In this document: one piece after another, positions 4,230 through 62,152 of the stretch
Layout: every line of letters begins with the position of its first letter
Numbering within the stretch: position 1 is the stretch's first letter
From: Isoetes taiwanensis
Lineage: Eukaryota; Streptophyta; Lycopodiopsida; Isoetales; Isoetaceae
Direction of reading: 5' to 3'
NCBI GenBank assembly: GCA_021234155.1
Contig: JAJEKV010000293.1
Span: forward strand, 1-64,000
DNA length: 64,000 bases
Notes under the pieces: model-generated
Told to the model about the DNA's origin: nothing
The model's database searches: none
The model's input: only the letters and a program-made list of their open reading frames with translations
Program-made: the position numbers and the translations under genes

Positions 4230-4329
4230 GTATTATCTCTTGAACTATTATTTTTCTGGCATATCCTAGTTCCGTGTTTCACACAGCTAACCATTTACTA
4301 TCATCACGTGCAACATGCCATCTAACAAT

Positions 4330-7240: not shown

Positions 7241-7282
7241 CAGATCCGATTAGGCAGCGCCGGAGCTCGCCGGATCTGATGA
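7237..7282 (-). promoter_or_regulatory. 12-bp perfect hairpin covering the SMT2 start codon
   Basis: TCATCAGATCCG (7237-7248) and CGGATCTGATGA (7271-7282) are exact reverse complements separated by 22 bases. In the minus-strand mRNA the 3' arm contains the first ATG of SMT2. The stem could slow initiation at that ATG and favour Met8 or Met12. The structure is visible; the regulatory role is inference. Confidence 0.5.
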
Positions 7283-12205: not shown

Positions 12206-13490
12206 TTTTAATTTAATTTAATTTAATTTATATCTAATGCTCACTTGGGACTCGAGAGGCCATGGAGCACATGAACATCTTGTTTACAGTTTAAGTAAAA
12301 AGGATCGGTGTGCATCCACCGTCCTTATGAAGAGCCCTAAACATGATGGTGGCATCAACCATAATGAATATAAATCTGTTGTCTGAACACCAAAATTGCT
12401 CCTAGTGTGCCCATATTCTGAACATTGCAGGAATACATGTTGTTCATCCTCAACGTCCCCTGAATTACATATCTTACAGAGTCTGTTTTCTGGTGGTGTT
12501 CTTGCCCATCTCCCTATTTCTACTTCGAGCTTATGGGATCCTGTTCGGTATCTCGCAATCAACTGCCTATATCCTTTTGGTATAGATGCATTTAAATAGT
12601 TTTGACATGTATATACATCCATATGGTTATCGCCGGCACGACATTGCGGCATCCTTTTCCCGTTCAGCCCATAATTTGTCCATTGCCGACTTTTCTAGCA
12701 AAACCGTGCTTCCTCTTTATCCGCGGCCGGTTTGAACTATTCAAGCCCCATTTGTTTGCCCATTGCATCAAATTTTTCTTCCAACCCCGATCACGATGCC
12801 ATCATAGCGATGTGAAAGGCGATTTGGATTACGTGCCAGCTTTCGATTGTAGAAATTAATATGATTGGTATAAGCCTTCAAGTTCTAGAGGAAACATACC
12901 TACTCCGCCGACATGATGGCATAGGGAATTTGGGATCGATACCAAGCTCCTCTTTCAAAAACATTTTACGAACTGCTTCTAACTCTTTCCATAGTCTCTT
13001 CGGAAAGTTGGTCCCCGGATAGGTACACCATATAACAGAACCGTTTGAACTAGAGTCTTAAATAAGATTCTTTTCAGCCCCCAATCTGTGAGTGATGCCC
13101 TGCCGCATCTTGCCGACATCTTTGTCTGAGGCAGCCTTGCCTCCGATGATCTCCGTTTCACCGCAGTTTTTCCGGTGTAATTTGATGCTATATCAATTCC
13201 TAAGTATTTGTAACTATCAACAGTCTCCAGTATTTGGCCTTTGTATGTGAACTCAGGTCTGTCCCTTGTGCCGAATACCATGATCTTGGATTTGGATAGA
13301 TTTACGCTCATTCTCTTTGATTCACAAAACTGCTCCAAACTGCATAAATGGTCTTGTAGCACTTTCTTGTGATTTGCTAGCAGTACCACATCATCGGCAT
13401 AAAGAAGTAATTGAATCACATACGTACCTAATTTTGTGCCTGCAAGAGATCTGGCTTTCAACCAATCTTCTAGTTCATCTATGAAAAACT
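12206..13490 (-). mobile_element. 5'-truncated LINE, reverse transcriptase C-terminal half
   Basis: Minus-strand frames hold LLLYADDVVLLANHK and CESKRMSVNLSKSKIMVFG near 13300-13420, the YADD catalytic box and thumb of a non-LTR reverse transcriptase. A second frame (12284-12652) carries RTGSHKLEVEIGRW and a Cys/His cluster RLCKICNSGDVEDEQHVFLQC, the usual C-terminal LINE motif. The 3' end is marked by a TTAAT-type repeat at 12206-12231. It lies inside copia gag sequence, which resumes near 13495. Confidence 0.8.
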
Positions 13491-14020
13491 GGTGAATGAT
13501 TCAAACTGAATTTGACCAAGAGACGGTATTCCTTGATAATTATGTTGATGCTGAAGTGTTGTTTACTTGAGAAGATAAATTTAAATGAAGGAGTTCTAGA
13601 GATTTACCTGTGGCAAGAGATAAAGGACAGGTTGGTCCTTGTTACCATTGTAAAATGCATGGTCACTTAAAAGTTGATTGCCTAAAACTGAAATATATGG
13701 AGTGTTCTAATTGTGGAAGTAAGGTATTTTTCTAATAGATGCTATAGTAATAAGAATGGAAAGAGGAAGAGCAAATAGAGGAACAAGAGCATTTAGAGGA
13801 CGAGGTAGAGGTACTAGAAGACAAAGTGCAGCAGTAAATTTGACACAAGAAATGGAAGACGAGGAAAGTGAAGAAGACGAAGATGCCGAAATATATAGTG
13901 CTACTATTTTCCTCTACTTCTAATAACGAAGAGTCTAATGATGAAAATGAAATGTTAAGCCTAGATAGTGGAGCAAAGAAACATTAACAGGGTCGGCCAA
14001 ATACTAAAGGAGAAAAGCGA

Positions 14021-39576: not shown

Positions 39577-40831
39577 CTTATGTAAACAACCAGGGAGGGC
39601 TTTTTTCCGAGGTGGCGCCAACGTGTCGCCTACGTGAAAAATTATAATGAATTCCGTATGTTTCTTCTGTGTTCAAGCTTTGGCGATGGCGTAACTCCGG
39701 CAGCTCGGAGACATTTTTTTGAGGCATTGCTGTGGTGCTCGCCTCGTTGTCTAGTTTTACAGTGACGCCATCGTCTTAGCTTCATTTTGATAGCGATTTT
39801 GCTGGATTTGGAGCTTTCTTGAAGTCTTGTGGTGTCTTTTTGAGTTCTTGCGAGTTCTTGCGAGTTCTACAGTGGCGGATCGGCCTTAGCTTCAAGTTTT
39901 TTTGGATTTGAAGCTTGCTTCAAGTCTTCTGATGACTTTCTGAGTTCCGAGGAGTTGTGGCGAGTTTGTGATGAGTTCTGATGAGTTTGTGACGAGTTCT
40001 TGGGAGTTCTGGAGTCTTCTGGCAAGTTTTTGGAGTTTGTCGAGCTTCTTAAGGTAATTTTCTTAGTTTTTAGTTTCCTTTATAAATTTCTAACACTTTC
40101 TTGTTTATTTCTTGCAGTTGTGGACAGTATGGAGGAGGAAAGCAGGTTCTGCATTGTGATTTTGTTGTTGCTTGGCTTGCATGCAGTGTTAGCTGACTGC
40201 ATTCGGGCTAGCAGACCATCTTATATAAACAACCAGGGAGGGCTTTTTTTCCGAGGTGGCGCCAACGTGTCGCCTACGTGAAAAAGTTTAATGAATTCCA
40301 TGTGTTTCTTCGGTGTTCAAGCTTTGGCGATGGCGTAACTCCGGCAGCTCGGAGACGTTTTTTTGGGGCGCTGCTGTGGTGCTCGCCTCGTCATCTAGTT
40401 TTACAGTGGCGTCATCGTCTTAGCTTCATTTTGATAGCGATTTTGCTGGATTTGGAGCTTTCTTGAAGTCTTGTGGTGTCTTTTTGAGTTCTTGCGAGTT
40501 CTACAGTGGCGGATCGGCCGTAGCTTCAACTTTTTTTGGATTTGAAGCTTGCTTCAAGTCTTCTGATGACTTTCTCAGTTTCGAGGAGTTCTGGCGAGTT
40601 TGTGACGAGTTCTTGGGAGTTCTGGAGTCTTCTGGCGAGTTTTTGGAGTTTGCCGAGCTTCCGAAGATAATTTTCTTAGTTTTTAATTTCCTTTATAAAT
40701 TTCTAACACTTTCTTGTTTATTTCTTGCAGTTGTGGACAGTATGGAGGAGGAAAGCAGGTTCTGCATTGTGATTTTGTTGTTGCTTGGCTTGCATGCAGT
40801 GTTAGCTTACTGCATTCGGGCTAGCAAACCA
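39577..40831 (+). repeat. 643-bp tandem duplication of the promoter/5' exon of the Crypton-like gene
   Basis: Unit 1 (39577-40219) and unit 2 (40220 to about 40831) are highly similar. Each runs from CTTATRTAAACAACCAGGG through a Cys/Leu-coding exon start (MEEESRFCIVILLLLGLHAV). In unit 1 a donor (AAG|GTAATT, about 40054) and an acceptor (CTTGCAG, 40118) flank a short intron before the ATG. In unit 2 the donor is GAAGATAATT, so the GT is lost. Unit 1 ends where the next unit begins, so its ORF is cut short. Confidence 0.75.
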
Positions 40832-41472
40832 TCTTTTGCCATTCTTGATCCGGATGAAAACCTCTGTAGGGAAGAAAGAGGAACAGACTTGGATTCTGTG
40901 TTAGAAACTGTAAATCGTGAAGACGTTAGGGAGTTAATGGACAGTGTGGCAAATGAAGAGTGGTTTCACGTGGATTTTGTTGAACCGGACGACAAGGATG
41001 ATGAATGTCAAGAGTTTATGGCCTTAGATGAGAGAATGTTAAAGGAGATTGATGGAGGAGGTAAGGATAAGTCTCCTAGGGTAAGTCAGTGGGCTAGAAA
41101 GAAGTTTGCCAATTGGAGGGTGTGGATTGGAGAAGATGTTTATGTTCCAATCGAGGATATTCCTCACATTAAGTTGGATAATATGTTTGTGAGGTTTATG
41201 ATTCAAGTGAAGAAAATGGTCTGATATATCCTCCATCAACGTAAGTCTTTACCTTTCTTTGTCTTTTAATTGTTTTCTCTATTTCTAACTTTGTGTTTTG
41301 TTTTCTTACAACTTGAACTGCCTTTATAAGGCATTTGGCAGAATGATAAGAAAGAATCAAGATGCTACTATTACAGCAACAACACAAAGGGACGTTATTC
41401 CTTTCAATATTTTGCATGATCCTGTGTTTACTAGGTCTAGGCTTGCATTTAAGCATGGTTTCATTAATTAGA
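40742..41472 (+). pseudogene. Crypton-like (DUF3504-type) tyrosine recombinase N-terminal remnant
   Basis: ATG at 40742 opens a hydrophobic start (CIVILLLLGLHAVLAYC), an acidic middle (WFHVDFVEPDDKDDECQ), then SQWARKKFANWRVWIGED, VPIEDIPHIKLDNMFVRF and MIQVKK. The last blocks follow the pattern of the N-terminal SAM-like domain of Crypton-derived recombinases (aromatic/Arg-rich helix; ED-P---LD-ML-RF---V+K). The next codons would read NGLIYPPST but for a one-base loss in the A run at about 41212. A second exon (about 41322-41470) adds FGRMIRKNQDATITATTQRD and FNILHDPVFTRSRLAF. The catalytic R..H.R..Y part is absent. Homology is inferred from pattern only. Confidence 0.45.
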
Positions 41473-45879: not shown

Positions 45880-48362
45880 ATGATATTGGGAGAAGACTAC
45901 TTGGCAGCAACCATAATGAAGACATTCCCTATGCCAGATAGGCCGACCATGCGATGCCAAGCATGTGCTGAAATGCCACGGTTGCACGACCTGGTGAGGT
46001 GGCCGATTGCTTTGGTGTTAGTAGACAATGTTGCTGTGTCAACACTCATAAAGACTGCGAAACAGACAGTCATTGAAGCAGAACCCTATGCCATGCAAAT
46101 TGAGCCTGAAAAGGCACCAAAGAGGATGTACAGAATGGTGAACCGGACCCCACGTTCACCTCCTGTGGCCACTAAAGCTGAGAGAAAAATCACAGCAGCT
46201 TCCATTTTAGACTTTAAGTCTTCGCTCTGCTGCATGCGAAGATGTTGCGCAAACTTCTCAACAGCCGAGATTGCGTGTATGCGTAGGTTCTATTGGAACT
46301 TGCGAGCTTCAGACAGGACCACATTTGTTTTCAACATGTTAGACGTCTGTTCACAGAACGGCCTGGTCCAGAAGCTGATGCTAAATAATAAGCAGGTATG
46401 CTTGAAAGCATGGCATAGAGCCTATGGTATTCCAATGTCCACATTCTATAAGTGGCGAAGACTTTTCCTTGCTGGTCACGTGAGTTCTTTGAGCATGGTA
46501 ACACGGGCACTAAAAAATCGAGGCCTCACACTCTCGTAGGAAGGCCATACTCTCTATGTACATAGATGAGAATGCAGAGGCGATGCCCCATGATCGAAAA
46601 ATCACTAATTGAAGGGGTGAGAGAGAATGTGAAGAGGCTCCCCTCTGTCCTAACTAAAAAGGACATTCTTCAAGAGGTGGACGCCAATGTGATGGAGATG
46701 ACGGGCAAGCACATCTCACATTCTTCATTCTCACGTGGGTGGAAGCAAAATCACGCAGAGGTTGCAATAGCAAAGAGGACAGCTTTCTCCAAGTGCAATA
46801 CCTGTATTGTAATAAAAGAGAAAATGGCTAAAACCAGAGATCCACGGGAGAGAAGAGAATTGCAGATGGAAAGGAAGGAACACATGACAGCCCAGATCTC
46901 TTGTAGGAGCTTGTACTGGTCATGGAGAGCTTTGTCCCATCGATCACCGGACCAGGCACTCACTATCATACATGATAAGATGGACCAAAACAAAACTATG
47001 ATTCCAAGACTTGAGAAATTAGCCAAGTCGGTATGGAGAGGTGAACGCTTGAAAGTTAGCGTGACTGGTGCACTGATGCATGGCCATGGCACAGGTGCCT
47101 TAGGATATTTCTCACTCGACCTTTGGAAGGATGATTCAAATTTTCATGTTGGTTCCTTGAATCATGCTATCAAAACACTGGAGGACACTTCCGAAGACAA
47201 TTGGGGCCATTTGAGAGAAGAAGCTCGGCCTGAGGGCATGTGGGGAACTGCACTCCTAAACAGTCTTGAGGGTTGAAGAAAAAAAACAATTGCACCTTGG
47301 GGTAGACTTTGTAGCACCTCTTAAGCAACCAGTAAGACCTTAAGAGGTTACCTAGGGCGGCTCTACTTGCAGCTAGACAAGCTTGCAGGCGAGAACAAGA
47401 ACAGAGATATCTCTTTTCTTATCTATCCTATCTTGTGTGGTTGGGTGTTTTTGATCAAATCTGAGGTTGGCTTCATGATGGTAGGCCACACTCATGATAA
47501 CATTGATGCGCTCTTGGTAACTATTCAACGTTAATGCGCAGGTCGGATGCTCTAACCATTGCAGAACTAATGCAACTCTTCCGAGAATGTAGCACAAAGG
47601 CACCGACACCATACCTTGTTACCGAGGTTCCCGATTGGAAGGGGGTTCGTAAAATGTTACATTCCTCGATAAGAAGGACCGTTTGGTTGGTCACTTGGAG
47701 CCCTTATCATTTTAAGTTCGCATGAATGATGGGTGGCCATTAATGTATTACAAGATGAGACACGGTCATAGAGAATGGTTGCTTTAAAAGGGTATTCGGA
47801 TGTGGAAAGCGATGACAATGGTTTGCCAAAGATACCGATTGGCTCGCCCAAGACCGTCAAGCCATATGCATGCCTCAAGGACATAGGAGCATTGAGGTCG
47901 TCCATTGGCGGGTACATGATGCATTGGGCTAACATCTCCGGGGGCTGGTGTGAACTCGTGGTCTAATACCTACATGAGCGAGGTCATGGACTCTTGGGTG
48001 CAAAGTGATGCGTGTGCTAGGTGAAGTACCCAGGGCAATCCGAAATTGAGAACTTCGGCCTCAAACAAGGCAAGTTTTGCTTGAAGAGCCCCGAATCTAT
48101 TCAGTGTCGATCGATATGACGCTCTTTTTTGCCTATGTAGGACACTGCTAAGGATAAACCCAAGAATGCAGTGGAGATATTTGACCCATACCAAGATGTA
48201 CAGAAAGGTATGTTTCTGCTTGTAAGACCGGCAGATGCATGTCCTACATGGGTAGCCTATGCAGAGGAGGATCCTATACAAGACCCCACTGCCCCTCATT
48301 ATAATGAGGTTTTTGTCTCTTGGTGGGAGCCTGTGGCTAGGAAAGGAACCGCATACGCTCAA
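45880..48362 (+). pseudogene. DUF7869-like large protein, copy B, 5' part (interrupted by the chromovirus)
   Basis: Starts near 45880. A Cys cluster SSLCCMRRCCANFSTAEI (about 46225-46280) is followed by a helix-rich stretch ending MSTFYKWRRLF. A shift near 46600 follows, then RLPSVLTKKDILQEV, SFSRGWKQNHAEV, FSKCNTCIVIKEK (46785-46823), QISCRSLYWSWR, IIHDKMDQNKTMIPRL (about 46968-47013), HGHGTG (about 47079-47096) and DDSNFHVGS. In a further frame come LQLDKLAGENKNR (47367-47405) and GFMMVGHTHDNIDALL (47469-47516). A C-terminal block GMFLLVRPADACPTWVAYA and VSWWEPVARKGTAYAQ runs straight into the retrotransposon at 48363; the rest resumes at 61957. Same order as copy A, but well diverged. Proposed RNase H-like core with Asp in IIHDKMD, Asp in LQLD and His/Asp in GHTHDNID; catalytic role is inference. 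Confidence 0.6.
48358..48362 (+). repeat. Target site duplication CTCAA, left copy
   Basis: CTCAA directly precedes TGTGACGT of the 5' LTR. The same five bases follow the 3' LTR at 61957-61961. Confidence 0.9.
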
Positions 48363-50111
48363 TGTGACGTTCGGGGGCCGATATCGGTCCCGGGGTGATC
48401 GATATGTATTGCCTACACGCCGCATTACACGCCCACTCCGGATCGATGTGTACGCTAACGTGTAGCCAGGTGGGTAGCCCTAGGGGGCAACTTGCCAGAA
48501 ATATGTGCACATTTTCCAATGTACACATTAATGTGGGCACACATTTCCATGTGGACACTTGATGCCAAGTGGGCCATACCCAAGTGTGCAATTAATGTGC
48601 ACATTTTCCAATGTACACATTAATGTGGGCACACATTTCCATGTGGACACTTGATGCCAAGTGGGCCATACCCAAGTGTGCAATTAATGTGCACATTTTC
48701 CAATGTACACATTAATGTGGGCACACATTTCCATGTGGGCACATTTTGCCACCTAGCCATTAAAGGCAAGTGGGCCCATTACCATTATCCCACATGCCTA
48801 AAGGGGATAATTGGAAACCCTAGCCAACCCCTTGTCTATTAAGGGAGGGAAACCCTAACTTGCCCAATTTTCGTTTCTAGGGGGTTTAGAACTCGCTTTG
48901 GCCCTCAATAGCCAAAACCGCCTCCCGAGACTACCGAGGGAATTGCACCATTAGTTTCCCTTGATTCGGCGTTTGGCCGGGATGGTCGAGCTCAGTCGGG
49001 AGGAGCCACTCAAGGATCAGGTATTTGGCCAATTAGATAGTCTAAACCCTATTTCAAACCATAGAATCAAGAGGTTTAGCCTATTAAATTGCCCATAATG
49101 ACCTTCTAGATCTCTAGATACCGACCTCTAACTAAAGAACCTAACTCTATGATGTAGATTAGATATAGTTCTTTAGTTCTTCCGCGGATGATGTATATGG
49201 ATGATGTATCTCTATGAACTCCTTGTATTGGGAAGGGGTAGAGACCTAAAGCTTGGTAGTAGATGCTCCTAGAGTAGCCTCTCTAGCACACTATAGATTC
49301 GCATGTGCACAAGAACCACACCGTTGTGGGTGAAGGGGCAGACCGGCTTAGAAGGAGGTTCGTGTCTCGACTCTTGAACGATCCCTATGGTGTGTTAGTG
49401 CACGGGGATCATTGTGACTAGGTCTAATGCCTTGCCACCTGGCGTGTGGGCAAGGCATGGGCTCGACACTGCGTGAGGCGGTGGATACGGACCTTCCATT
49501 GAGTTCAAGTCGAGTACGGGCAAAGGGCCCTCTAGCCACCGTGAGTCGGCATGTAGATCTCGGAGGGAGTGATCCCTACACGCCCCATCGGAATCGGGAG
49601 ATGAAACCCGTGAATAGCCCTTTTGGCTATGCATCCGTGGCGGCTATAGTCAGGTCCCAACACTTTTCAGCCTACCGCAAAGTGTGTGTGCTGGAGGGGC
49701 GGATGGAGTGGACAACCCTATGCCATGTTCTTATGCCAGCCAAATCCATTGCCATGAATTCTGTCTGAAATGATCTCTGGAGACCCAAAACGTCAGTCAT
49801 TCCCTTGAGTCTGAGCCTTGGGTAGAACCCCCCCATATGTATTGTGCTCGCCTTGTTTATGTAGATGTGATGGACCACCCTTCGAGGTGGCTATGTGCTT
49901 ATGTTATTTACTGACATGTATGTTTACGTTTCCGCAGCTAGGTAGACCCTGAGGGAGACGGGGTAAAATGACCCCTTCACTCTTCCCACTGGAACCCGCC
50001 ACGGTTTTGCGGTGTCATGTGGAGGGCCCCAGATCGGCATGGAGCTGGTATGGGGGATGAACTCCTGTTTGTATACGGTGAGTGCACCGTATACGAGTAG
50101 GGGACGTCACA
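48363..50111 (+). repeat. 5' LTR
   Basis: Begins TGTGACGTTC and ends ACGTCACA, 1749 bp. About 2.7 copies of a 92-bp tandem unit start at 48505. Followed by one base and the PBS. The first 100 bp are less similar to the 3' LTR than the rest. Confidence 0.92.
48505..48760 (+). repeat. 92-bp tandem repeats in the 5' LTR
   Basis: Units start at 48505, 48597 and 48689. From the second unit on, ATTAATGTGCACATT and AATGTACACATTAAT flank TTCC, a 15-bp near-perfect hairpin (one mismatch). The same array lies in the 3' LTR at 60351, 60443 and 60535. Position in the LTR suggests transcription-control repeats (inference). Confidence 0.85.
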
Positions 50112-50112
50112 G

Positions 50113-50124
50113 TGGTATCAGAGC
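50113..50124 (+). promoter_or_regulatory. Primer binding site, initiator Met tRNA type
   Basis: TGGTATCAGAGC one base after the 5' LTR. This is the common plant LTR-element PBS complementary to the 3' end of tRNA-iMet; it primes minus-strand DNA. Confidence 0.9.
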
Positions 50125-50316
50125 AATGTTCTTGGTGACCAAGAGCAAAGCACTGGCCATGTTCCCAGTAGTACTAACTTGATAGGATCCTTAAACCTCG
50201 AAAAATGGGAAAAAAAATTTCTCATTTTTTTAGTTTTGCTAAGCTAGTAACAGTTAAAATGAATGAAAACATAAAAATATTAAGAATTGGTGAGCCAACA
50301 TCCAAAAAGTAGGGTG

Positions 50317-50383
50317 GTCTCACACGTCGCGCCAGGACAGGAAATGAGATTTTCATTTTCGGGCTGGGCGCAACGTGTGAGAC
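50317..50383 (+). repeat. 67-bp imperfect palindrome, copy 1
   Basis: Runs from GTCTCACACGTCGCGCCAGG to GGCGCAACGTGTGAGAC; the ends pair over about 20 bases with few mismatches, and ATGA/TCAT steps continue the stem. Copy 2 lies 200 bp on. Confidence 0.9.
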
Positions 50384-50516
50384 ATTCAGCTTAAACACTT
50401 AAAAAGTCATAAATCACAGTAAAATAACTTGATAATTCTAAATTTAAGCTAAGAATCAGTAGAATTGGCATGTTACATGTTTAAAAAGTACAAAATTTAG
50501 TAGTGGGTCCCACCAT

Positions 50517-50583
50517 GTCTCACACGTCGCGCCAGGACAGGAAATGACTTTCTCATTTTCGGGCTGGGCGCAACGTGTGAGAC
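50517..50583 (+). repeat. 67-bp imperfect palindrome, copy 2
   Basis: Same length and stem as copy 1, with changes only near the loop. Confidence 0.9.
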
Positions 50584-50658
50584 CTTGCTTAACTAGGTGT
50601 TTTAGATGTTTTAAGCAACCCAAAAAGGTAGTTTAAAAGTTGACCTAAAATCGACCCC

Positions 50659-50666
50659 TATAAATA
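50659..50666 (+). promoter_or_regulatory. Internal TATA box before the H3-like frame
   Basis: TATAAATA 142 bp after the start of palindrome 2 and about 110 bp before the ATG. Downstream, AGGCGATCTTCC (50724-50735) recurs after the second TATA box at 52687-52698. The paired arrangement suggests a real promoter module; activity is untested. Confidence 0.5.
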
Positions 50667-50768
50667 GACCTAGACCCCTCCCATTTCCACGTTCTTTCCT
50701 TAGAAATTTGCTCGTGCCCGCCAAGGCGATCTTCCGGCGCTTAGCTCCGATCGACGAACCAGCAAATG

Positions 50769-52039
50769 ATGGCCCGCACGAAACAGACTGCTAGGAAGCC
50801 TGAGGAGAGGCGAATCCTCCGGCGCCCAATGATTCCGCCTCTTCGGAGAGAGTCCTTCAAGAACGCCTTTTCCGGAAGGCGAATCTTCCCAGCGAAGATG
50901 CGAGGATCGGATCGGGCCGACCACACCGAGATCATAGACGACGGCCGCCGACATCATGCATCAAATCCTAGAGGAGATCGCAGTGGAGGAGGAGAGGACT
51001 AGGAGCAACGGGGCCGACCGAGCGACCAATAGTTGAAGAGCAGCTCGGGCCAAGAGACCCACCTGCGGGAAGAACAAGGAGAGAAGAGCAGCGGCAAACA
51101 ACACTTAGCCCCGTGAGAAGAAGCCGATCTTGTGCGCTTCATCAGCAAGCACGAAGCCAAAGAGCGCCCGGGAGCAGTAAGACGAAGAGTGGGGAAGACG
51201 ACCCGACCACGGCAAGTAGCCTAAAGAAGAGGAAGGCTAAAGCCATTAAGGCGTGGCAAAACAAAAGGTCGAAGGGTTGGTAAGCGGGCCGGGGATCAAC
51301 ATCAACGAACCATCGGTTAAGAGAACCATCAGGCGAAGAGACCAGCCTTCACCGACGACTCGACGAAGACTACTGCGTGCGACACGAGAGGGAGCGGAGT
51401 TAGGTCAAAACCCCACTTTGTAGAGAAGAAAGTGCTGACAAGTAGTAGCACCTGGCGGAGGTGTAGCACAGAGCGGAGGAGGCCGAGCAGTGCGAAAGCC
51501 CCACCTTTCAGGCGTGGGATAGGGTCAAAGCCCCCGGCCACAGCGGGAGGCATATGTGATAGACCTGGCCAAGGTCTATCGAAGAGGATCAAGGAGCACA
51601 ACACCTACATGGAGAAGTGGGAGGCATACAATGCCTACTACCAGGGAATGGTACCCGGACAATTGAAGGCGGACACAGACGAGTCGGACTTCTGAAGCCA
51701 CCCCACCAAAGCCCAAGCCTCCCCGAGCACCGGGGAAAGAAGCGGCCCGGAGGGAAGAAGTTGGAAAAGCAGAGCCCTCAAAGAAACCGACACTTCGGAG
51801 AGAATTTGGGACTCGATCCCAGGGCACCATTTCAACGTTTGGTCCGCGAGGTCATGCAGGAGTACAACACAGACATGCGCGTGACCGATGAGATGTTGTT
51901 GTGCTTACAGGAGGCAGCAGAGGCAAAAATAGTGCAGCATTTTGAAGATTCAACGGCCTGCACGGTGCACGCAAAGAGGGTCACCCTCATGAGGCAGGAC
52001 ATGTATCTTGCCAGGCACATCAAGGGAGAACGCCCTTGA
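50769..52039 (+). pseudogene. Histone H3-like protein carried by the retrotransposon (frame-broken)
   Basis: The ATG at 50769 (better context than the ATG at 50766) opens with MARTKQTARKPEE: nine residues identical to the mature H3 N-terminal tail, including K4 and K9, with Pro for Ser10. A long basic linker follows, with frame changes near 50945, 51695 and 51820 (pieces [20 protein letters not shown] and [20 protein letters not shown]). From 51827 to the stop at 52037 lies an H3 histone fold: [37 protein letters not shown] and LARHIKGER. It aligns to canonical H3 over 70 residues without gaps, about 39 identical by my hand count. Loop 1 is not lengthened and the end is GERP, so it is not CENH3-like. 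The length would be about 420 residues against 135 for H3. I infer capture of a host H3 gene. Confidence 0.8.
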
Positions 52040-52183
52040 ACTCCTTGTAAATAATGAACATTTTTTGTTAATATAAGGAATTTTTGTGTGAATAATGTGC
52101 CTAATCTTGTTTAAATATGTTAAGAAACTGAATTCTAGCTTTTGTTTTAGTCAAATTGGAGTTTTGAGCAAAATTGAGACGAT

Positions 52184-52250
52184 GTCTCACACGTCGCGCC
52201 AGGACAGAAAATGAGATTCTCATTTTCGGGCTGGACGCAACGTGTGAGAC
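52184..52250 (+). repeat. 67-bp imperfect palindrome, copy 3
   Basis: Same 67-bp unit as copies 1 and 2, about 145 bp after the H3-like stop codon. Confidence 0.9.
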
Positions 52251-52382
52251 CATGCCCAAAAATGCCCAAAACAGCTCCAAATCGACCAAATAAGGGGTCA
52301 ATTCTGCCTAACTCGACGAGTTTAGTGGAATTACAGCCTTAGATCACCCAAATTGGTCAAGTTTAGCCCAATTAGAGCCCAT

Positions 52383-52449
52383 GTCTCACACGTCGCGCCA
52401 GAACAGAAAATGAACTTCTCATTATCGGTCTGGGCGCAACGTGTGAGAC
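52383..52449 (+). repeat. 67-bp imperfect palindrome, copy 4
   Basis: Starts 199 bp after copy 3, matching the 200-bp spacing of copies 1 and 2. Slightly more diverged (AGAACAG, TTATCGGTC). Confidence 0.9.
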
Positions 52450-52629
52450 CTCCTACCATTTTCTTCACCAAATGATCTCCAAGTTGTTGCAATAGGTTCA
52501 TTAGTTGTTCTTAGCATGCTCAAACCCTAGAAGTAGTCTTCAAACTCGCAATTGCACCCTTTAATAGATCAGAATCACCTAATCTCAGTAAATTCTAGGT
52601 CATCCAAAAATTAGGGTTTCCCCCTTTTC

Positions 52630-52637
52630 TATAAATA
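52630..52637 (+). promoter_or_regulatory. Internal TATA box before the gag-like frame
   Basis: TATAAATA 115-122 bp before the ATG at 52752, repeating the layout of the first module. Confidence 0.5.
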
Positions 52638-52751
52638 AGCCCCCCGTTTCTCATTTAGCACCCTGCAAGTTTGCTCTCCACTGCTTAGGCGATCTTCCAG
52701 CTCCCTAAGGCGCTTCTGCATCCGTTTGATTTTTCCTTCTTCGCTAGATCA

Positions 52752-53381
52752 ATGGCCACTGCTGACTTCAGGCGATGGTACAGCGCCCAAAGGTGCTATG
52801 TTGCCGAGGCGGATGTCGACGACATCTTCCAAGTCTTTGGGAAGGAAATTGATATCCAAGCCACGCTAAATGCAACCCCAGAATATAGGCAAGTGCTAGC
52901 AGAGTTTCAAGCTAGGTAGGACCCTCCCTTGTTCAGTCCCCCCTTGCATAGGATATTTCGTTCCCTCGCCATCCCTTCAGCGGCTTTGGGCGATGTCCCC
53001 AACATCGCCAAGTACCTAACTAACAAGGCGCAGAGGCTGCCAGACTACATGGTCCTGACAGCCAACAGGACCAAGTATTTCTCTTATACCACCGCCCTAG
53101 CTATTTTCTTATCCCACCGCGCCGAAAACCCGATGGGGGCAACCTCTATCCCTCCGATGGAGGTGGACCCCATAAAGGTAAGAAGAAGAGCGGATGCTTT
53201 TGGCAATATCGGCCGGGAACAAGAAGCAAGAGAAGAAGAAGAGGAGTCGGACGGCGAGGAATACCGCGAGCTCGACTTCGGACGAAGAATGGCGCCAAAG
53301 CCCGAGCGGAGGCATGTCGGCTTGGCGGGCCGTGAGCCGTCGAGTTGCTCCACCACTTGGGTTTGGGCATCACAAGCCTAG
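52752..53381 (+). pseudogene. Retrotransposon gag-like N-terminal frame
   Basis: ATG at 52752 (ATCAATGGCC) opens MATADFRRWYSAQRCYVAEA. One in-frame TAG (52917) interrupts it. The frame goes on with FSPPLHRIFRSLAIPSAAL, VPNIAKYLTNKAQRLPDYM and a highly acidic/basic stretch to 53381. I do not recognise a known gag domain here; position before the nucleocapsid/protease region makes a structural gag product likely. Further charged open pieces follow to about 54900. Confidence 0.5.
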
Positions 53382-53399
53382 CCCCAATCATCATCGACG

Positions 53400-54900
53400 G
53401 AGGAGGAATATCTACTCCTCGGTGACATTCAAAATCTTCGAATGCAGGGGAGGGAACTCGATTGGATGAGTTGCTCCACCAATCTTGCGAGGCCCGGGCA
53501 TGGGCGGCTTTCCGTCAGGGGGAGTCTCAGACTTCCGCACAAGTCGAAGCCGACACCTACCAGGCGGCGACTTCGACATCAAGCCTCACGGCAATATCCG
53601 AGGCAGATCATGGAGGTGACCCGGGCTGCAAATAGACTAATGGCGGAGGAAGAGTTCCTTGCTTTCTGGGAGCAGATGGGGATGGGAGGCAAGACCACTA
53701 GCATCGATCTTAGGAGTCCCTCAACACCACCTCCAAAGAAGAGGCGGGGAATCGACCTCGGCGAATGCCACTCAACAATCAAGACTAAGGGGAGCTCACC
53801 AAATCGAGGTCCACGATTATCAGTGTGACATAGAGCGAGGAGGCTAAACAAGTGGGGGAATCATCCGCGACGCGACAACGCGGTCAGTCGGGTACTACGG
53901 TCACGCTGGCTGGATGGGAGAATAAGCGGTGATAATAATCGCAAGTTCAGTCCCGAGGGGAGGAAGGTTGTGTTCATGCTGATTGCACTCTCGAGCTTCA
54001 GCATGCATGCTCATTAGCAGCAAATGTCGACTATGCCGTCCCGGGTGAAGAGTAATGGCACTTGACCTATTCGACTTAGCCATACCCCATCGACGCCAGC
54101 GAGATTAGCGAAGTGACGGACGCGCCCTTACATCCGTGGAAGCCGGGCGAGATACCTTGCGGAAATGCCTGCCGTCAGCAAGCCATCGAGGAACTTGGGT
54201 CATTCAAGCAGGAACGGCCCAAGTTAAGAAGTTCTTGAGGACAACCCGCCCACCGCTGATTTCAAGATTAGTTAGACTCTTGATCCAGGAGATTTTTGTA
54301 CTAAAATATGATATAATATAAATATGATTTACATTTGCACTTTAAATGTTTTGTTGATGTATTTTTGCCCCACAACTATACCAACAAACATAAACAATGC
54401 AAGAGAACAAGTAAAACTAACCATATAGCCATGAATTATTTGTGTATGCGGTTAGAGGCCTAGGCTCGGGAGGGAACGACAACGCCAAGACCTTAGAGAA
54501 GAAACAGACCCTTGAGACCACCCCGGCAAGGAACTTATTTGAAGAAATGGAACCCATGACCCCGAGGAGGAAGAGATATCGGATGAGGGCGGACCTTGAA
54601 GCGGATAAAGGCTCACATTAGCCGCTGCAGCGAGGAGCGAGGTTCGGTGGGCAATGCTCAATTGCCACAAGCATCAACTCGAGAAAACAGGAAGGGACAA
54701 GAAGAGGAGCAAGAGAAGGAGATCCCCGGTTCGGATTCCTCCGAGCTCAAGCTCGACTTCAGACTCGACTCAAGAAGAAGAAGAGCGTGGCCAGGACCGA
54801 ACAGATGGAAGACAAAGGAACACTGAAGAGGGAAGGCAGAGGAACACGGATGGACGACAAAGGGACACTGGGGCCTCGACTACGAGAAGAAGGTAGATTC
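53400..54900 (+). other. Charged, frame-broken gag linker region
   Basis: Short open pieces rich in Arg, Glu and Ser in changing frames (for example about 54600-54830). Stops and indels prevent a single model. No separate gene seen. Confidence 0.4.
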
Positions 54901-54949
54901 GACCGGGCAATGTATGGAAGGCCCGGAATCGGAGCAGGTTCGGGGAGAA

Positions 54950-55670
54950 CAGTCGGGGATTAGAAGTGGAGGCATGGCTGGATGAAATGAGTGAGTATGC
55001 GGCAACGCTTTTTTTTTATGGCATGAAGGATAAAGACAAAGGAAGAGTGACAATGTACCAACTTGAAAGGAGCCGCGACGGATTTGGTGGAAGGGTTATG
55101 CAAAGGCCCATGGCTTGAGCAGGATGCTTGCGGTGTTCAAGAAGTTTGCTAAAGCCTTCAAAGCGCCATTACGTCCCAAAGGGAACATAAGTCCAAAGAT
55201 GATGCAAAGAGTTCTACAGTTGCAAAGAAGGCAACAAATGGCCCGTATATACGAGGAATTCATGAGGTCGAGGTCAGGATGTGCCAAAGTTGGGTGAGAA
55301 GCACGCGATATAAAGCTATATTGAGGGGCTGAATGAGGAGATCCAGTAAGCTTGTGAGGGAATAAACCCTAAGACAATGCTCAAAACAGAGTCCAAGGCT
55401 ATAAGCTTGCAAGGAAGCGGGACCTCGAATAGTGGGCGTATGCAGCAGTATTTCCGGGATAAAGGCAAATGATGACAGAAGCTATAGCCCTAGGGCAGCC
55501 GGGCCCGAAGTCCAGCTTAGAGCCCCATATGGTGGCAAACCGTGGGAAAACAAAGGAGAGAAGAAGCAGGTGTCCTTCAAGGACAAGCGGGAGGGGTCAA
55601 ACTACTCCAAAGCAAAGGCGATCCTTTTTGCGGCGATGCCCAAGGAAAAGAGAGCGGGGAGTGCATAGAA
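54950..55670 (+). pseudogene. Gag core (Retrotrans_gag-like) remnant
   Basis: EVEAWLDEMSEYAATLFFYG, then NLKGAATDLVEGLCKGPW in a shifted frame, matches the plant Ty3 gag pattern (V--WL--ME-Y----; L-G-A---W). Further pieces include FKKFAKAFKAPLRPKGNISP and GRMQQYFRDKGK. A Cys pair near 55685 may be a decayed zinc knuckle. At least three frameshifts. Confidence 0.55.
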
Positions 55671-55998
55671 AAGCGGCTACGCTTTCAGTGCTTCCAGCCA
55701 AAGCCATAGGACAAATGAACCGCCTCTACGTCATGAGTGCTGGCTAGCGGAGTTGGGAGATTGGGACATCCCGCCCCGACGACGACGGCCGAGGAAGGGC
55801 GACTACATTCAAGGTGAGTGTCATATCTTTGCCGCAATAGATACAGAGCAAGCAGAGAGCCAGTATAAAGTAATCTCCACAGTAGGGAAGGCTAATACCA
55901 AGACTCAGGAAGTAGCCATAACTTTGCGTCCCCCAGAATGGTTCAAATGTTGAAGTTGAAACCACTAAAGTCAAAGCCAAGGCCCGTTGTCTTAGCAA

Positions 55999-57267
55999 GT
56001 GGTGCGAAGAAGGCGCAGCGGCAGCAAGAGAATTAACTTCGACATCGACTTGCCATGGATTAATATCCAGATGGGGGCAGAAGTAATGGACATTGGCAAG
56101 TACGACTTGATCATAGGAATGGAGTATCTTGGACCAGCAAGAGCCATCATTGATTGTGGAAAGCGGAAGGTGACCTTCCCAACACCCGACGGCAAGATCA
56201 TCGAGATCACAGGTAAAGAAGTTATTCCCATCATGCAGTGCATGTCTTCTAAGCGGCTGTTCAAGTGCATCAAGAGCGAGCAGGTGGCATACATCTTCAA
56301 GCTTGAGATTGACGAGCCAGAGTCAAAGGAAAGCAAAGAAGACAGGGAGCTCAGCAAGTTGCCGAAGCAAATAGCTCAGCTGATCACGGAATTCCATGAT
56401 CTCTTTCCAGATGAGATCAAGCAGCTTCCTCCTTATAGGGGAGTCGAGTGTGAGATAGCACTCGAACCAGGAGCAAAGCCGACAAGCAAGGCTCCATACA
56501 GAATGACGACGCAGGAGTTGACGGAGCTGAAGAAGCAATTGCAGGAGTTGCTCGACCTAGGCTTCATTAGACCTAGTGTCTCGCCATTCGGAGCGCCCAT
56601 TCTCTTTGTAAAGAAGAAGGATGGCAGTTTAAGGATGTGCATAGACTATAGGCAGTTGAACAAGCACACCATTAAGAACAAGTATGCGCTTCCCAGATCA
56701 GATGACTTGATGGATCAACTCCAAGGTGCGAAGGTCTTCTCCAAAATTGACTTAAGGTCAGGTTATCATCAGATCAGGATAAAGGAAGAAGATATCCATA
56801 AGACGGCCTTCAGAACGCGGTATGGGCATTATGAGTTCACAGTAATGCCTTTCGGCTTATCGAATGCCCCCGCGACATTCATGAGGCTCATGAACGATAT
56901 CTTCAGGGAGTTTTTAGACACCTTTGTGATTGTATTCTTTGATGACATTTTGGTGTATAGCAAATCCCTTGAAGAGCACGTACAACACTTAAGGAGAGTG
57001 CTAGAGAAGTTGAAGAGGCACCAGTTGTACGCCAAGTTGTCGAAGTGCCACTTCGCAACAGAGAAGGTGGAATACCTTGGTCATGTGATATCAGCAGAAG
57101 GAATCTCGACGGATCCTGCCAAGATTGAAGCCGTCATTCAGTGGCCGGCACCGAAGAATGTGCATGAAGTCAGAAGTTTTCTCGGCCTAGCAGGGTACTA
57201 CAGGAAGTTCGTGAAGAACTTTGCTAAGATAGCGGGATTAACGGACTTGACGAGGCGGAGAAAGTGA
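55999..57267 (+). CDS. Pol: protease end and reverse transcriptase
   Basis: Open for 422 codons. The protease C-part ([20 protein letters not shown]) is followed by the RT domain: [97 protein letters not shown], the catalytic box FFDDILVYS and [20 protein letters not shown]. The usual YVDD/FIDD is FFDD here. The frame stops at 57265, before RNase H. Copies element RNA into DNA in cytoplasmic particles. Confidence 0.9.
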
Positions 57268-58030
57268 AAGATTGGGCGAGCATTGGCACAAGAAAGCTCA
57301 AGCAGTGGTTTGAATTGTTGAAGGAAGCTTTAACAACCGCCCCCTGGGGATCTTAACCGCCGGACCGGAGAAAGATAAGCTTGTAGCAACAGACGCGATA
57401 AAGTAAGATAGCTATAGCAAAGGCTCATGCAAGAAGAGCGTGTAGTAGCATTATGATTCGGGGAAGATGAACGGCGCCGAAATCACGGTACCCACCCACG
57501 ATCAGGAATTGCTTCTTGCGGTTGTCGGGGGCATTAAGAATTTGGAGGCACTATCTTTGGGAAGGAAGTTCGGTTGGATACGCACCATGAGCCTCCAAGA
57601 TGTATTCACGCAACCACACCTTAACCTGAGGCAGAGAAGGTGGATGGAGTTCCTGGAAGAGTATGACTTTGATATAGTCTACAAGCCAGGGAAGCTCAAT
57701 GTGGTAGCGGATGCGCTTTCGAGGCATCCCCTGACAACTAGAGTGCATTGCAATGCAATTTCGACGCTCTCCAGCGACTTTGGTAAGAAGATTGAAGAGT
57801 ACTTGCCAACGGATGTGGATTTCAAGGAAGTATGGGCAAGCCTCTCGAGGGAGGCTAGAACAGATAAAGAGCGGGAAGCCTTCAAACATTATAAGAAGGA
57901 AGGCAACCTGTTATACCATAAGAACAAGTTGTGCGTACCCGAATCATCAGGCGTAAGGAAATTGATCCTCCACGACACGCACAACAGCCCAATAGCTGGC
58001 TCCTCCACGACACGCACAACAGCCCAATAG
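57268..58030 (+). pseudogene. Pol: RNase H end and integrase zinc-binding start
   Basis: Broken sequence 57268-57466 keeps LKEALTTAP and ATDA. The open piece from 57467 has MNGAEITVPTHDQEL, TQPHLNLRQRRWMEFLEEYD and IVYKPGKLNVVADALSR, the RNase H end. The integrase HHCC domain starts at KLILHDTHNSPIAG but is broken by a 35-bp tandem duplication (57966-58000, 58001-58035). Confidence 0.8.
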
Positions 58031-58059
58031 CTGGCCATGCGGGATTCATGAAAACATAT

Positions 58060-58600
58060 TTCAAAGTGCGCAGCAGCGCCTATTATTGGCGGGAATGAAG
58101 AAGCAAGTAGCTCGCTACATCGAGAGAATGCCGGCTATGTCGTGGAACAAAGGCGGAACAACTCAATTCCGGGGCCTTAGAGCCATTATCGGTGCCAAAG
58201 CGCTAAATGGGAGGTGATTAGCTGGATTTCATCACGGGACTCCCCGGGGCGACCGTAAGAGGGAAAAGGCGCTTTGATGGTAGTAGTCGACAAGTTGTGA
58301 AAATGGCACATTTTGTGCCTTGCAGACCACAGATACCGCCATGGACACAAAAGAAAGCTCTTCACCAAAGAGATCTTGGGCTTCATGGCATGCCAAAGGA
58401 GATTATATCCGCGAGGGATCGAAGTTCATGGCGCCTTTTGGCAAGACCTCTTTGGCGACGATCCGGACCAAGCTATCCATGAAACGCGGTATCATCCTCG
58501 ACGGATGGCCAAGCGGAGCGGACCAACAGGATTTTTAGAGGACATGCTACGAAACTATGTGCGGAATAAGCAAGGTATGTGGGAAGAATTTATTCACTTG
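58060..58600 (+). pseudogene. Integrase catalytic core, frame-broken
   Basis: KMAHFVPC (about 58300-58323) and LHGMPKEIISARD (about 58381-58420) are integrase core signatures (D,D-35-E enzyme). Several indels. The expected DRD reads ARD. Confidence 0.7.
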
Positions 58601-58739
58601 CGGAGTTTGCCTACAATAGCACCAAGCGAAATCATCCCAAATGTCATGGTTTATGATCAATTACGGCTATCGGTGCCTAACTCCGGACACTTGGCACAAC
58701 CCAGGTGTCAAAAGTGGAAGTTTCGCAGCAGATGTTGAC

Positions 58740-59318
58740 CGATATGCAGCAGCTGGTGGAAGAGGTTCGAGGGTATTTGCTAGCAGCAAGGAGTCGACAA
58801 AAGAGCATCACCGCAAGCATCGAACAGTAAGAGAGTTCAAAGTTGGAGATGATGTATGGCTCAAGATCAAGGTGAAGCAGGCGAAGCTCAGGATCGGAAA
58901 TTGTAAGAAGCTTGCTCCAAGGTGGGCTGGACCTTTCAGAATAGTCGAGAGAGTAGGTAATCAAGCCTACAAACTAGACTTGCCAGCACACCTAAAGATT
59001 CATAAGGTCTTCCACGCGAGTTTGTTGAAGAAGCATACTCCAAGTCCAGACGAAGTCTTGGACACTCCAACGTTGTTGGAAATGACGGAGGAGGAGTTGG
59101 AGATAGTTCCAGAATTGATTCTTGATAAAGCTTTCAAGAAAACAAGGAGGTCGGAATTCCTCCAATACTTGGTCAAGTGGAAGCACTTGCCAGTGGAAGA
59201 CGCGACATGGGTACTCAAGAAATATCTAGTAAAGCAGTACCCACAGTTTATAGAGCAATGGGATGGCAAGGTCATCTCCGAAGAGATCGGCTCAGGCATG
59301 TCGATCTGTGTAGATTAA
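58740..59318 (+). CDS. Integrase C-terminal domain plus chromodomain
   Basis: Part of an open frame that begins about 58641. It shows KHRTVREFKVGDDVWLKIK, LAPRWAGPFRIVERVGNQAY, the LP.HLKIHKVFHASLLKK block and a chromodomain PELILDKAFKKTRRSEFLQY, LVKWKHLPVEDATWV and VKQYPQFIEQW. In chromoviruses this domain steers integration to marked chromatin, in some through methylated H3K9 (known). The aromatic cage cannot be judged fully by eye; W in LVKWKHLP is kept. Ends at 59318. Confidence 0.9.
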   Translation, partial: RYAAAGGRGSRVFASSKESTKEHHRKHRTVREFKVGDDVWLKIKVKQAKLRIGNCKKLAPRWAGPFRIVERVGNQAYKLDLPAHLKIHKVFHASLLKKHTPSPDEVLDTPTLLEMTEEELEIVPELILDKAFKKTRRSEFLQYLVKWKHLPVEDATWVLKKYLVKQYPQFIEQWDGKVISEEIGSGMSICVD

Positions 59319-60160
59319 TTCTATGTTTAGTTAAGATTAATCTATGCATGCAACCTATGCTTGGTATGGGTCGCATGCGTTGTTACCGATGATGGGACCA
59401 CTACGGTGATCTCTAGGGCGTGGTGTAATGTCAATGTAGGCATAACCGCGTTTCCGCTTGGGCGAGTGGAAGGTAGATTAGAAAGTCTACCTCTGTCCCA
59501 CGGAAGTAGACGACCTCGAGAGAAAGGAGGTCATGAAGGAATGCACTGATAGGAAAAGCACCTCTAGCCCCATATATGCTTTGATAGGAGGAATCAGGCC
59601 TTCACGCCCCATATACTGGGAAGGACCTATCCTCCACGCTGGCAACTAGGGTGTAGGCATGAGCGGCATATAGGCATATAGGCTATTTGTCTCCACGGCC
59701 ATAATGGAAGATTCACCCTCTTCCTACGCCGGGAGATTAGCCATGCATCCATGTAGATAAGTGGGGTGGTCACCATATAACCAAAAGTTTATTAATAATT
59801 AAATGGTACTAACGTAGTGTCGACACCTTGCAGCCAATAGAGCGCTCGGGAGGGGCAAGGAGGTCGAACTATTTAAGACTTGCAACACAAATTTTGTTGG
59901 AATGTGTTGCAAGGAATGAAGAGTACCTCGGGACGCTAATCTTAATTTTGATAAACTTAATTGTCATGTTAAGTGAATTATTGAGTAACCTGTTTTAATG
60001 ATGTTATGAATTGATAAGTTATTTCATAATATAATGGCGTGATAATGTCCTAAAAATATTACCTTAAGGTAATCTTAATAAATGTGTAAGTATTATAGTA
60101 GTTTATAGTATGTATCAGGTTGATTGCAGGTTAGGATGATCCCAAGGTGGGGAGACCCAC
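59319..60160 (+). other. Non-coding 3' region of the chromovirus
   Basis: About 840 bp between the pol stop and the PPT region, with no supported ORF. Short inverted pieces (GTAGATTAGAAAGTCTAC near 59473) and a CCCCATATA repeat (59569, 59608) are visible. Confidence 0.6.
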
Positions 60161-60196
60161 GATGCTGCGGACAGCATCATTTCAAGGTGGGGAGAA
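60144..60196 (+). promoter_or_regulatory. Polypurine tract, duplicated around a hairpin
   Basis: AAGGTGGGGAGAA (60184-60196) abuts the 3' LTR and is the PPT priming plus-strand DNA. A second AAGGTGGGGAGA lies at 60144-60155. Between them is GATGCTG-CGGA-CAGCATC (60161-60178), a perfect 7-bp stem. Confidence 0.85.
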
Positions 60197-61956
60197 TGTG
60201 ACGTTCCAGGACGATATACGGTCCCGGGGCGATATCTTTATCTTGCCTGCGTCGCAGCATTACGCCCCTCCGCCAATCGACGCACGCTAACGTGTAGCCA
60301 GGTGGGTAGCCCTAGGGGGCAACTTGCCAGAAATATGTGCAACTATTAATGTGCACATTTTCCAATGTACACATTAATGTGGGCACACATTTCCATGTGG
60401 ACACTTGATGCCAAGTGGGCCATACCCAAGTGTGCAATTAATGTGCACATTTTCCAATGTACACATTAATGTGGGCACACATTTCCATGTGGACACTTGA
60501 TGCCAAGTGGGCCATACCCAAGTGTGCAATTAATGTGCACATTTTCCAATGTACACATTAATGTGGGCACACATTTCCATGTGGGCACATTTTGCCACCT
60601 AGCCATTAAAGGCAAGTGGGCCCATTACCAATTATCCCACATGCCTAAAGGGGATAATTGGAAACCCTAGCCAACCCCTTGTCTATTAAGGGAGGGAAAC
60701 CCTAACTTGCCCAATTTTCATTTCTAGGGTTTTAGAACTCTGTTTTGGCTGCCTCAATGCCAAAACCGCCTCAGAACTCTCGAGGGAATTGCACCATTAG
60801 TTTCCCTTGATTCGAGCGTTTTGCCAGGATGGTCGGAGGCTCGGGTCGGGGAGGAGCCACTCAAGGATCGTATTTTTGTAATTAGATAGTCTAAACCCTA
60901 TTTCACCATAGAATCGTGAGGGTTTAGCCTATTAAATTGCCCATAGCAGCCTTCTAGATCTCTAGATACCAGCCTCTAACTAAAGAACCTAACTCTATGA
61001 TGTAGATTAGATATAGTTCTTTAGTTCTTCTGTGATGTATATGGATGATGTATCTCTATGAACTCCTTGTATTGGGAAGGGGGGTAGAGACCTAAAGCTT
61101 GGTAGTAGATGCTCCTAGAGTAGCCTCTCTAGCACACTATAGATTCGGCATGTGCACAAGAACCACACCTGGTTGTGGGTGAAGGGGCCAGACTGGCTTA
61201 GAAGGAGGTTCGTGTCCTGACTCTTGAACGATCCCTATGGTGTGTTAGTGCTACCGGGGATCATTGTGACTAGGTCTAATGCCTTGCCACTGCGTGTGGG
61301 CAAGGCATGGGCTCGACACTCGTGAGGCGGTGGATACGGCCTTCCATTGAGTTCAAGTCGAATACGGGCAGTGGCCCTCTAGTCACCGTGAGTCAGCATG
61401 TAGATCTCTGGAGGGAGTGATCCCTACCTGCCCCATCGGAACTGGGGAGATGAAACCCAGGAATAGCCCTTTTGGCTATGCATCCGGCGGGCTACAGTCA
61501 GGTCCCGACACTTTTCAGCCTACTCTGCAAAGTGTGCACAGGAGGGGCGGATGGAGTGGACAACCCTATGCCATGTTCTTATGCCGCCCAAATCCATTGC
61601 CATGAATTACATGCGAAATGATCTCGGAGACCCCAAGCCGGGTCATTCCCTTGAGTCCGAGCCTTGGGTAGAACCCCCATATGTATTGTGCTCACCTTGT
61701 TTATGCAGATGTGATGGACCACCCTTCGAGGTGGCTATGTGCTTATGTTATTTATCGACATGTATGTTTACGCCTAGCAGGCTAGGTAGACCCCGAGGGA
61801 GGCGGGGTAAAATGACCCTTCACTCTTCCCACTTTGGAACCCGCCACGGTTTGCGGTGTCATGTGGAGGCTGTACAGATCGGCATGGAGCTGGTATGGGG
61901 GATGAACTCTGTTTGTATACGGTGAGTGCACCGTGATACACAGTAGGGACGTCACA
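60197..61956 (+). repeat. 3' LTR
   Basis: TGTGACGTTC to ACGTCACA, 1760 bp, collinear with the 5' LTR with many small indels. Tandem 92-bp units start at 60351, 60443 and 60535. Confidence 0.92.
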
Positions 61957-62152
61957 CTCAACGAAAGGGGATGGCGGCATAAGAAATGGAGGCCGAATCC
62001 TAATGATGGACCACGTTATCGACCTCTCAAAGCGATAGACTATGCACGGTTAGTCGAACGAAGCCATTATTGGTTTTGATCCCGCATTGGTAGGAATCCG
62101 TGCACGGGAGCTATTGGCTAAAGAGGCCTCAGAGGATGGAGATGAAACTTGA
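61957..62152 (+). pseudogene. DUF7869-like copy B, 3' end after the insertion
   Basis: After the CTCAA duplication the host sequence resumes in a frame encoding HKKWRPNPNDGPRYRPLKAI and ARLVERSHYWF. With one shift it goes on as DPALVGIRARELLAKEASED, ending at TGA 62150-62152. It fits the tail of copy A (ENNWRENHVDPQRRELVE). This joins the two halves of the gene across 13.6 kb. Confidence 0.55.

Follow-up and report, generated by a model that had tools for sequence, protein, structure and literature searches.

Core histones carried on mobile genomes are known from DNA viruses, and we found none described for retrotransposons. Bracovirus H4, for instance, is described as joining host nucleosomes (PMC5423620, PMC9145170). 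The plant Ty3/gypsy chromoviruses (Tekay, Galadriel, Reina, CRM, Tcn1) resemble the element reported here, from the quillwort Isoetes taiwanensis, in their LTRs, primer-binding site, reverse transcriptase (RT), RNase H and integrase-end chromodomain. Unlike them, the quillwort element has two further genes 5' of gag, the first of which ends in a histone H3 core. Our search for a retroelement-encoded histone covered the open-access literature and returned none, in line with the statement of the original prediction, made from the sequence of this locus, that no histone was known in LTR elements; in the main text of the viral-histone review PMC9145170, the word “retrotransposon” is absent.

An H3 gene inside a Ty3/gypsy chromovirus

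The window, that is, the whole stretch of 64,000 nucleotides analysed, contains a Ty3/gypsy chromovirus at 48363-61956, flanked by the target-site duplication CTCAA (48358-48362 on the left, identical to the five bases after the 3' LTR, 61957-61961). Its 5' LTR (48363-50111, +) and 3' LTR (60197-61956, +) start with TGTGACGT and end with ACGTCACA. A local alignment of the two, which overran the LTR starts by some 160-180 bases, shows 94 mismatches over 1827 aligned bases as well as 84 gaps totalling 192 bases. Tandem repeats with a 92-bp unit occur within both LTRs (48411-48876 and 60257-60722). The primer-binding site TGGTATCAGAGC, presumably of the initiator-Met-tRNA type, directly follows the 5' LTR (50113-50124, +), and a polypurine tract, recognised by position and composition, lies at 60185-60196 (+). 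A probable gag region (54480-55660, +) is placed by position and gene order. The pol domains identified with Pfam come in the usual chromovirus order: the protease end and RT (55996-57267, +; RVT_1 7e-42, RVP_2 0.0028 and below cut-off), the RNase H region (57449-58030, +; RT_RNaseH 1.2e-6) and the integrase C-terminal region (58620-59318, +; SH3_Tf2-1 4.9e-22) with a chromodomain at about 59106-59264 (Chromo 6.4e-10). Among the frames searched in this broken copy, the integrase core gave no Pfam match. By eye, and in alignments to Chd1-type chromodomains only, cage positions Y24 and Y48 of the window chromodomain are non-aromatic (two of three cage residues absent), as in the group II chromodomains defined in PMC3350952; according to that paper, the factor interacting with group II chromodomains has not been found.

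The H3 gene, ORF1 (50769-52039, +), begins at an ATG at 50769 that opens MARTKQTARKPEERR. Its translation starts with the H3 tail tip MARTKQTARK (50769-50798, +), and a frame at 51563-52036 ends in a 70-residue H3 histone fold (51827-52036, +) with Pfam and PDB matches. The window histone frame matches Pfam Histone strongly (E 1.7e-20) and has histone H3.3 as its best PDB match (E 2.3e-21, no gap across the fold). This confirms the predicted H3-like gene within a Ty3/gypsy element, running from MARTKQTARK to an ungapped 70-residue fold. The predicted indels are also present: tail tip and fold lie in different frames in the window, and ORF1 is one open frame in other copies. These indels are either real or assembly errors. 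The published assembly (1658.30 Mb, 204 scaffolds and 909 unplaced contigs) is described as built from Nanopore long reads with polishing (PMC8566536), so that part of the indels in repeats may stem from assembly and our open-frame counts, obtained from 1,658,258,908 bases in 1110 contigs, are lower bounds. The fold length of 70 residues given by the prediction holds for the window; in the copies with one open frame the H3 homology extends over about 90 residues, back to the alphaN helix ALKEIRHFQ, a part damaged in the window copy.

The H3 gene does lie between the 5' LTR and gag, as proposed, but a second extra gene, which the prediction had not mentioned, intervenes before gag. This ORF2 (52752-54270, end approximate, +) encodes an acidic protein; it is broken here, whereas many other copies have it open over about 530 aa (noted also at L061-L064), and pieces from other copies gave no Pfam match above cut-off. 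The modules 5' of ORF1 and ORF2 are alike, each with two 67-nt hairpins about 200 nt apart, the motif TATAAATA and a similar leader. The hairpins lie at 50317-50383 (z -7.4) and 50517-50583 (z -6.9) before ORF1 and at 52184-52250 (z -6.8) and 52383-52449 (z -8.0) before ORF2, all on the + strand, and TATAAATA occurs at 50659-50666 (+), 110 nt 5' of the H3 ATG, and again at 52630-52637 (+). All 28 family-A loci, L001-L028 with the window among them, have the motif upstream of ORF1, its spacing to the H3 core being similar throughout; the second one, upstream of ORF2, is found in 23 of the 28. These 28 loci contain 104 hairpins of this type, 77 of them exactly 67 nt, with long stems and nearly invariant outer arms. 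Since ORF1 is set in the same promoter and hairpin surroundings across family-A loci, a host H3 gene merely adjoining the element is ruled out, a reading also contradicted by the window and by one family-B copy, where ORF1 is placed after the LTR and before ORF2.

Elsewhere in the window, the open frame at 48141-48398 is the insertion site of the H3-bearing element; together with a frame at 46566-47276 that has a weak DUF7869 match below cut-off, it possibly belongs to another mobile element. A direct duplication at 39601-40835 has units about 610-640 bp apart and 90-96% identical. The minus strand carries genes for a PPR protein (2838-4232) and a sterol methyltransferase-like protein (6116-7249), as well as a further reverse-transcriptase fragment (12979-13500).

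Element families and selection on ORF1

When the whole genome was searched with the window histone frame, 9534 loose candidates came up. Scoring covered 150 of them, and 37 of the scored rows have open frames of at least 400 aa without a stop. Twenty of these 37 loci were fetched, and in 15 of them one frame of 398-451 aa runs from MA[R/C]TKQT to the last H3 residue. This single frame in 15 copies establishes that the tail and the fold are parts of the same protein, as had been claimed for the two separated ends of H3 in the window. In this family, A, the protein opens with MARTKQTARKP. A charged region containing a basic stretch of KKRKAK type follows, then a middle part that is conserved (AYVIDPVKVYQKRIKEHN...NAYYQEHRVR.IEGG), and a link rich in proline leads to the H3 core with its alphaN helix. 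The extension between tail tip and core measures about 318 residues in the window family, the two being some 300 residues apart in A, C and D alike, and the family-A core shares about 57% identity with host H3. When at least 6 of 10 matching residues are required, 25 tails are recognised in 28 loci (window included), 18 of them exact and all with K4 and K9; K9 is followed by proline, not serine, in the family-A tails found and in families C and D. MARTKQTARKP is encoded exactly at 419 genome sites, and among the 100 of these that were listed the codons vary synonymously. An 11-residue degenerate pattern of family-A type has 751 exact matches in the genome and none in a reversed control, these counts, like those for family B below, being pattern matches at sites not individually placed within elements.

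Queried with ordinary H3, the genome yielded 9022 candidates: 15 intact frames at 96-98% identity, which we take for the host H3 genes (intron-containing H3 genes would not appear whole in a frame search), followed by at least 135 further rows at 71-86%. The H4 query gave 69 candidates; of its 43 matches, 16 are full-length, with 99-100% identity. The genome-wide spread is thus specific to H3 as against H4. The 15 intact H3 frames are near-identical, as are the 16 full-length H4 frames.

Fifteen of the 135 further rows were cut out (L044-L058), and all have the core of a second family, B, and form one clade with it; on average these cores are 87% identical to host H3 (15 cores, 90 residues). 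In the intact family-B frames, an N-terminal domain starting MAITKSAPDP or similarly is fused to the H3 core and ARTKQTARK is absent; L048, whose start MAITKRAP was missed by the pattern, is not counted among them. Outside the H3 core, family-B ORF1 has no detectable relation to that of family A. The N-terminal domain is about 300 aa long (L055:592-1491); a search of 5.8 billion proteins gave 2777 candidates for it, none of them a relative with an E value of 10 or better; a guess made by eye that it is an ORF2 homologue was unsupported by hhalign. The family-B-type signature RVTIMPKDLAL, as an exact degenerate pattern, occurs at 731 genome sites and never in the reversed control. One family-B copy followed outward has LTRs 95.6% identical, with ORF1, ORF2 and pol between them; blastn aligns this pol region to that of the window (66% over 2905 aligned positions). 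Family-B ORF2 matches that of the window family with blastp (5e-13) and hhalign (probability 96.5 over 389 columns).

Four of the 100 listed tail sites, chosen for unusual codons, were fetched (L075-L078). Two belong to a family C, in which ORF1 is open from MARTKQTARKP to the H3 core in L078 and frame-broken in L075; L077, frame-broken as well, represents a family D with tail, middle part and H3 core. At the fourth site, L076, MARTKQTARKPR is directly followed by a stop and then by a Retrotrans_gag frame, and this site is a remnant, a shortened relative keeping the tail only. Besides the tail, A and C are 42% identical over A residues 136-413, the stretch between tail and residue 136 being unaligned, and D is 43% identical to A over its C-terminal 167 residues, the only part compared. 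Downstream of L078, an ORF2 resembles that of the window family piecewise (46-65%), and a pol frame of 1207 aa encodes an RT sharing 86% identity with the window RT. A family-C search in which 105 candidates were scored gave 109 rows, 30 of which span residues 1 to 393/394 without a stop. Families A, B and C thus have an H3-core gene beside ORF2 and pol, with ORF2 homologous across the three, and D is seen at gene level.

The element proteins match Pfam Histone at 9.2e-27 (A, one copy), 2.5e-41 (B), 5.6e-22 (C) and 7.2e-24 (D), and the best PDB matches of family A are H3. The alphaN helix and fold align gap-free to H3, family D being one residue short. The H3 tail through K36 is not retained: A, C and D, which share ARTKQTARKP, keep residues 1-9 only, and family B, from which this motif is absent, matches H3 from about residue 25 onward and not residues 1-9.

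The element-borne H3 sequence is preserved by selection. Here, dN/dS was calculated pairwise on related copies and not by a likelihood test on a tree. The 15 family-A copies used are those with the single frame described above; they had been ranked on how well they matched the C-terminal part and picked for the length of their open frames. The other five loci fetched (L011, L012, L015, L017 and L019) were left out because of a shifted N-terminal frame or an absent start. Pooled over these 15 frames, dN/dS is 0.024 for the H3 core (bootstrap 0.016-0.033) and 0.032 for tail residues 2-10 (0.000-0.087), against 0.380 for residues 11-25, 0.212 for 26-235, 0.077 for the middle part (236-297) and 0.247 for 298-330, with an overall dS of about 0.54. 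The synonymous variation of the tail codons indicates that the constraint acts on the protein. In family B, core dN/dS is 0.035 (7 intact frames). Because similarity ranking and the choice of long frames could lower core dN, a control sample was drawn, consisting of ten sites found through ORF2 and chosen by eye as absent from the list of the histone-frame search. The H3 fold stands at the expected place in nine of these ten and is lacking there in one (L066). Leaving out L066 and the frameshifted L068, the eight remaining ungapped copies have a fold dN/dS of 0.064 (0.042-0.111) at a dS of 0.64. The constraint on the H3 fold stands in this sample, somewhat weaker, and the comparison of dN/dS across copies that the prediction had asked for shows strong purifying selection. 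The nine H3-bearing sites, together with the 751 signature sites, also rule out chance or a one-off insertion: H3 is a standing feature of the family. Of the two outcomes named beforehand as refuting the prediction, an H3 segment missing from all other members and a failed histone match in HMMER, neither was observed.

Origin and possible role of the element H3

The capture of a host-type H3 gene, as originally proposed, is supported. In core trees, B forms a supported group and A groups with C with support, the support values of the second tree (with C and D) not having settled; a single clade of all element cores is compatible with the data (p-AU 0.36 for A and B, 0.139 with C and D). The common gene position and common ORF2 favour one capture in a shared ancestor, and the unrelated remainder of ORF1 in B leaves room for two, in which case family B might have taken up its H3 independently and put it to a different use. 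Relative to host H3, synonymous sites are almost saturated with differences (0.88-0.93 of sites). This points to a capture long ago, although codon preference could contribute. The proposal that the linker arose by extension of the H3 tail found no support. Alignments with an extension inserted after K9 looked good but failed against shuffles: 3805 (A), 4343 (C) and 3514 (D) of 5000 shuffled linkers scored as high against H3 residues 10-45.

The maintenance of H3 through family divergence implies that a transposon benefits from altering nucleosomes or from imitating the H3 tail. With a probability of roughly 0.55, we interpret the element H3 as a chromatin-bound, long-armed H3 variant that would pair with H4 and tether or protect the element. 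A Ty3/gypsy chromovirus lineage would have acquired an H3 gene that became its first gene and that selection has kept in diverged families. The core of its product would dimerise with host H4 and enter H3-H4 tetramers and nucleosomes, or chaperone-bound H3-H4, while the long charged arm would hold out a modifiable H3 tail; the protein might then tether element proteins to chromatin and/or keep element chromatin permissive. In doing so it could direct integration, protect the element from silencing, or both. In one representative each of families A-D, C110, H113, R116, D123, L126 and I130, positions that we take to form the H3-H3' bundle, are as in host H3 (position 129 varies), and so are R52, R72, R83, K115 and T118, presumably DNA-contact residues; R63 and K122 are altered in the family-A representative and R69 in that of D. 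At positions 87-90, which we assume to guide chaperone choice, every family differs from the host at one site at least, L90 being kept in A, B and C. The kept interfaces and the altered 87-90 fit a protein that still has to bind H4 and DNA without being tied to the normal path of deposition. In family-A ORF1, the tail tip ranks with the core as most constrained, and it is identical in C and D; ARTKQTARK is a substrate of K4 and K9 enzymes. The chromatin-bound variant is also favoured by the fact that H4 has not spread (69 candidates versus 9022 for H3), and has a precedent in the bracovirus H4 that joins host nucleosomes. Against it count the identity of only about 57% between family-A core and host H3, the differences at 87-90 and the changes at R63, K122 and R69, the lack of ARTKQTARK and of any relation beyond the core in family-B ORF1, and the one ORF2-picked site in ten without H3.

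It is possible, but rather unlikely, that the protein acts instead in soluble form, its tip occupying the host enzymes or readers of H3K4 and H3K9 so that silencing is weakened, and its fold serving for import or stability only. A tail tip as constrained as the core and the proline after K9 (in the family-A tails found, C and D) would suit such an imitation. The core, however, could then dispense with the H3-H3' and DNA-contact residues that it retains, and family B has no tail and yet a core 87% identical to host H3. To return to the chromatin-bound variant, the element H3, once deposited with H4 and displaying its K4/K9 tip on the arm, might dock the chromodomain of the element's own integrase, the mark and its reader being both self-supplied. 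We consider this extension doubtful; it would provide a possible answer to the question of the binding partner of plant retroelement chromodomains.

A role in packaging, in which ORF1 with or instead of a nucleocapsid would condense element nucleic acid in particles through its fold and host H4 (or itself), seems improbable to us. Retroelement particles contain RNA, the element already has its own gag-pol region, H4 shows no genome spread, and packing would not call for an exact ARTKQTARK, although by dN/dS this tip is as constrained as the core. What speaks for packaging is the place of the H3 gene before gag, the richness of the ORF1 extension in charged residues and Marseillevirus, whose DNA is described as packed by the virus's own histones (PMC9145170). 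We find it very improbable that the protein resembles a centromeric variant, providing replacement chromatin or centromere targeting and steering insertion to one type of chromosome region. An H3 core behind a long divergent N-terminal part is CENH3-like, but CENH3 also has a lengthened loop 1, and the element cores align to ordinary H3 without a gap, so that loop 1 is not lengthened and CENH3 identity was rejected; moreover, the first 100 listed places of each signature, A-type and B-type, lie on many contigs. We give hardly any credence to a functionless H3 gene transduced and copied along with the element since, although LTR elements do acquire gene fragments and the window copy is broken, core or fold dN/dS is 0.024-0.064 at a dS of about 0.54-0.64, families A, B and C all carry a gene with the H3 core, and the constraint would have to be an artefact of copy picking, against which the ORF2-picked sample argues.

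Comparison with known systems

The full-length family-A protein was also compared with 5.8 billion proteins; 8000 candidates were scored and 2461 passed. The best 120 of these 2461 matches cover 29-48% of the query, the histone part only, and where judged by name and domains they are histone H3 proteins. A full-length relative should have ranked first. The quillwort elements open a new source of H3-like proteins within a plant genome and are a natural experiment on which parts of H3 matter to such a parasite. They also have a practical side: H3 annotation in quillworts and antibodies to the tail tip may pick up element proteins, if these are made.

Bracovirus H4 (CpBV-H4 / CvBV-H4) is, as far as described, likewise a captured core histone with an extended N-terminal tail on a mobile genome; it differs in being an H4, in belonging to a wasp-borne relic of a DNA virus and in acting on another species. 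Bdelloid rotifer LTR retrotransposons are likewise reported to have extra ORFs beside gag and pol (PMC5408684), but the extra gene of the quillwort elements is a histone. The H3 genes of NCLDV and of the Manila clam xenomavirus are described, like ours, as single H3-like genes with a host-like core and an altered tail (PMC9145170). Those genes reside in DNA viruses, whereas the quillwort H3 resides inside plant LTR retroelements, in a lineage with more than 1000 signature sites in one genome and a long internal extension; the tail tip is intact in its families A, C and D.
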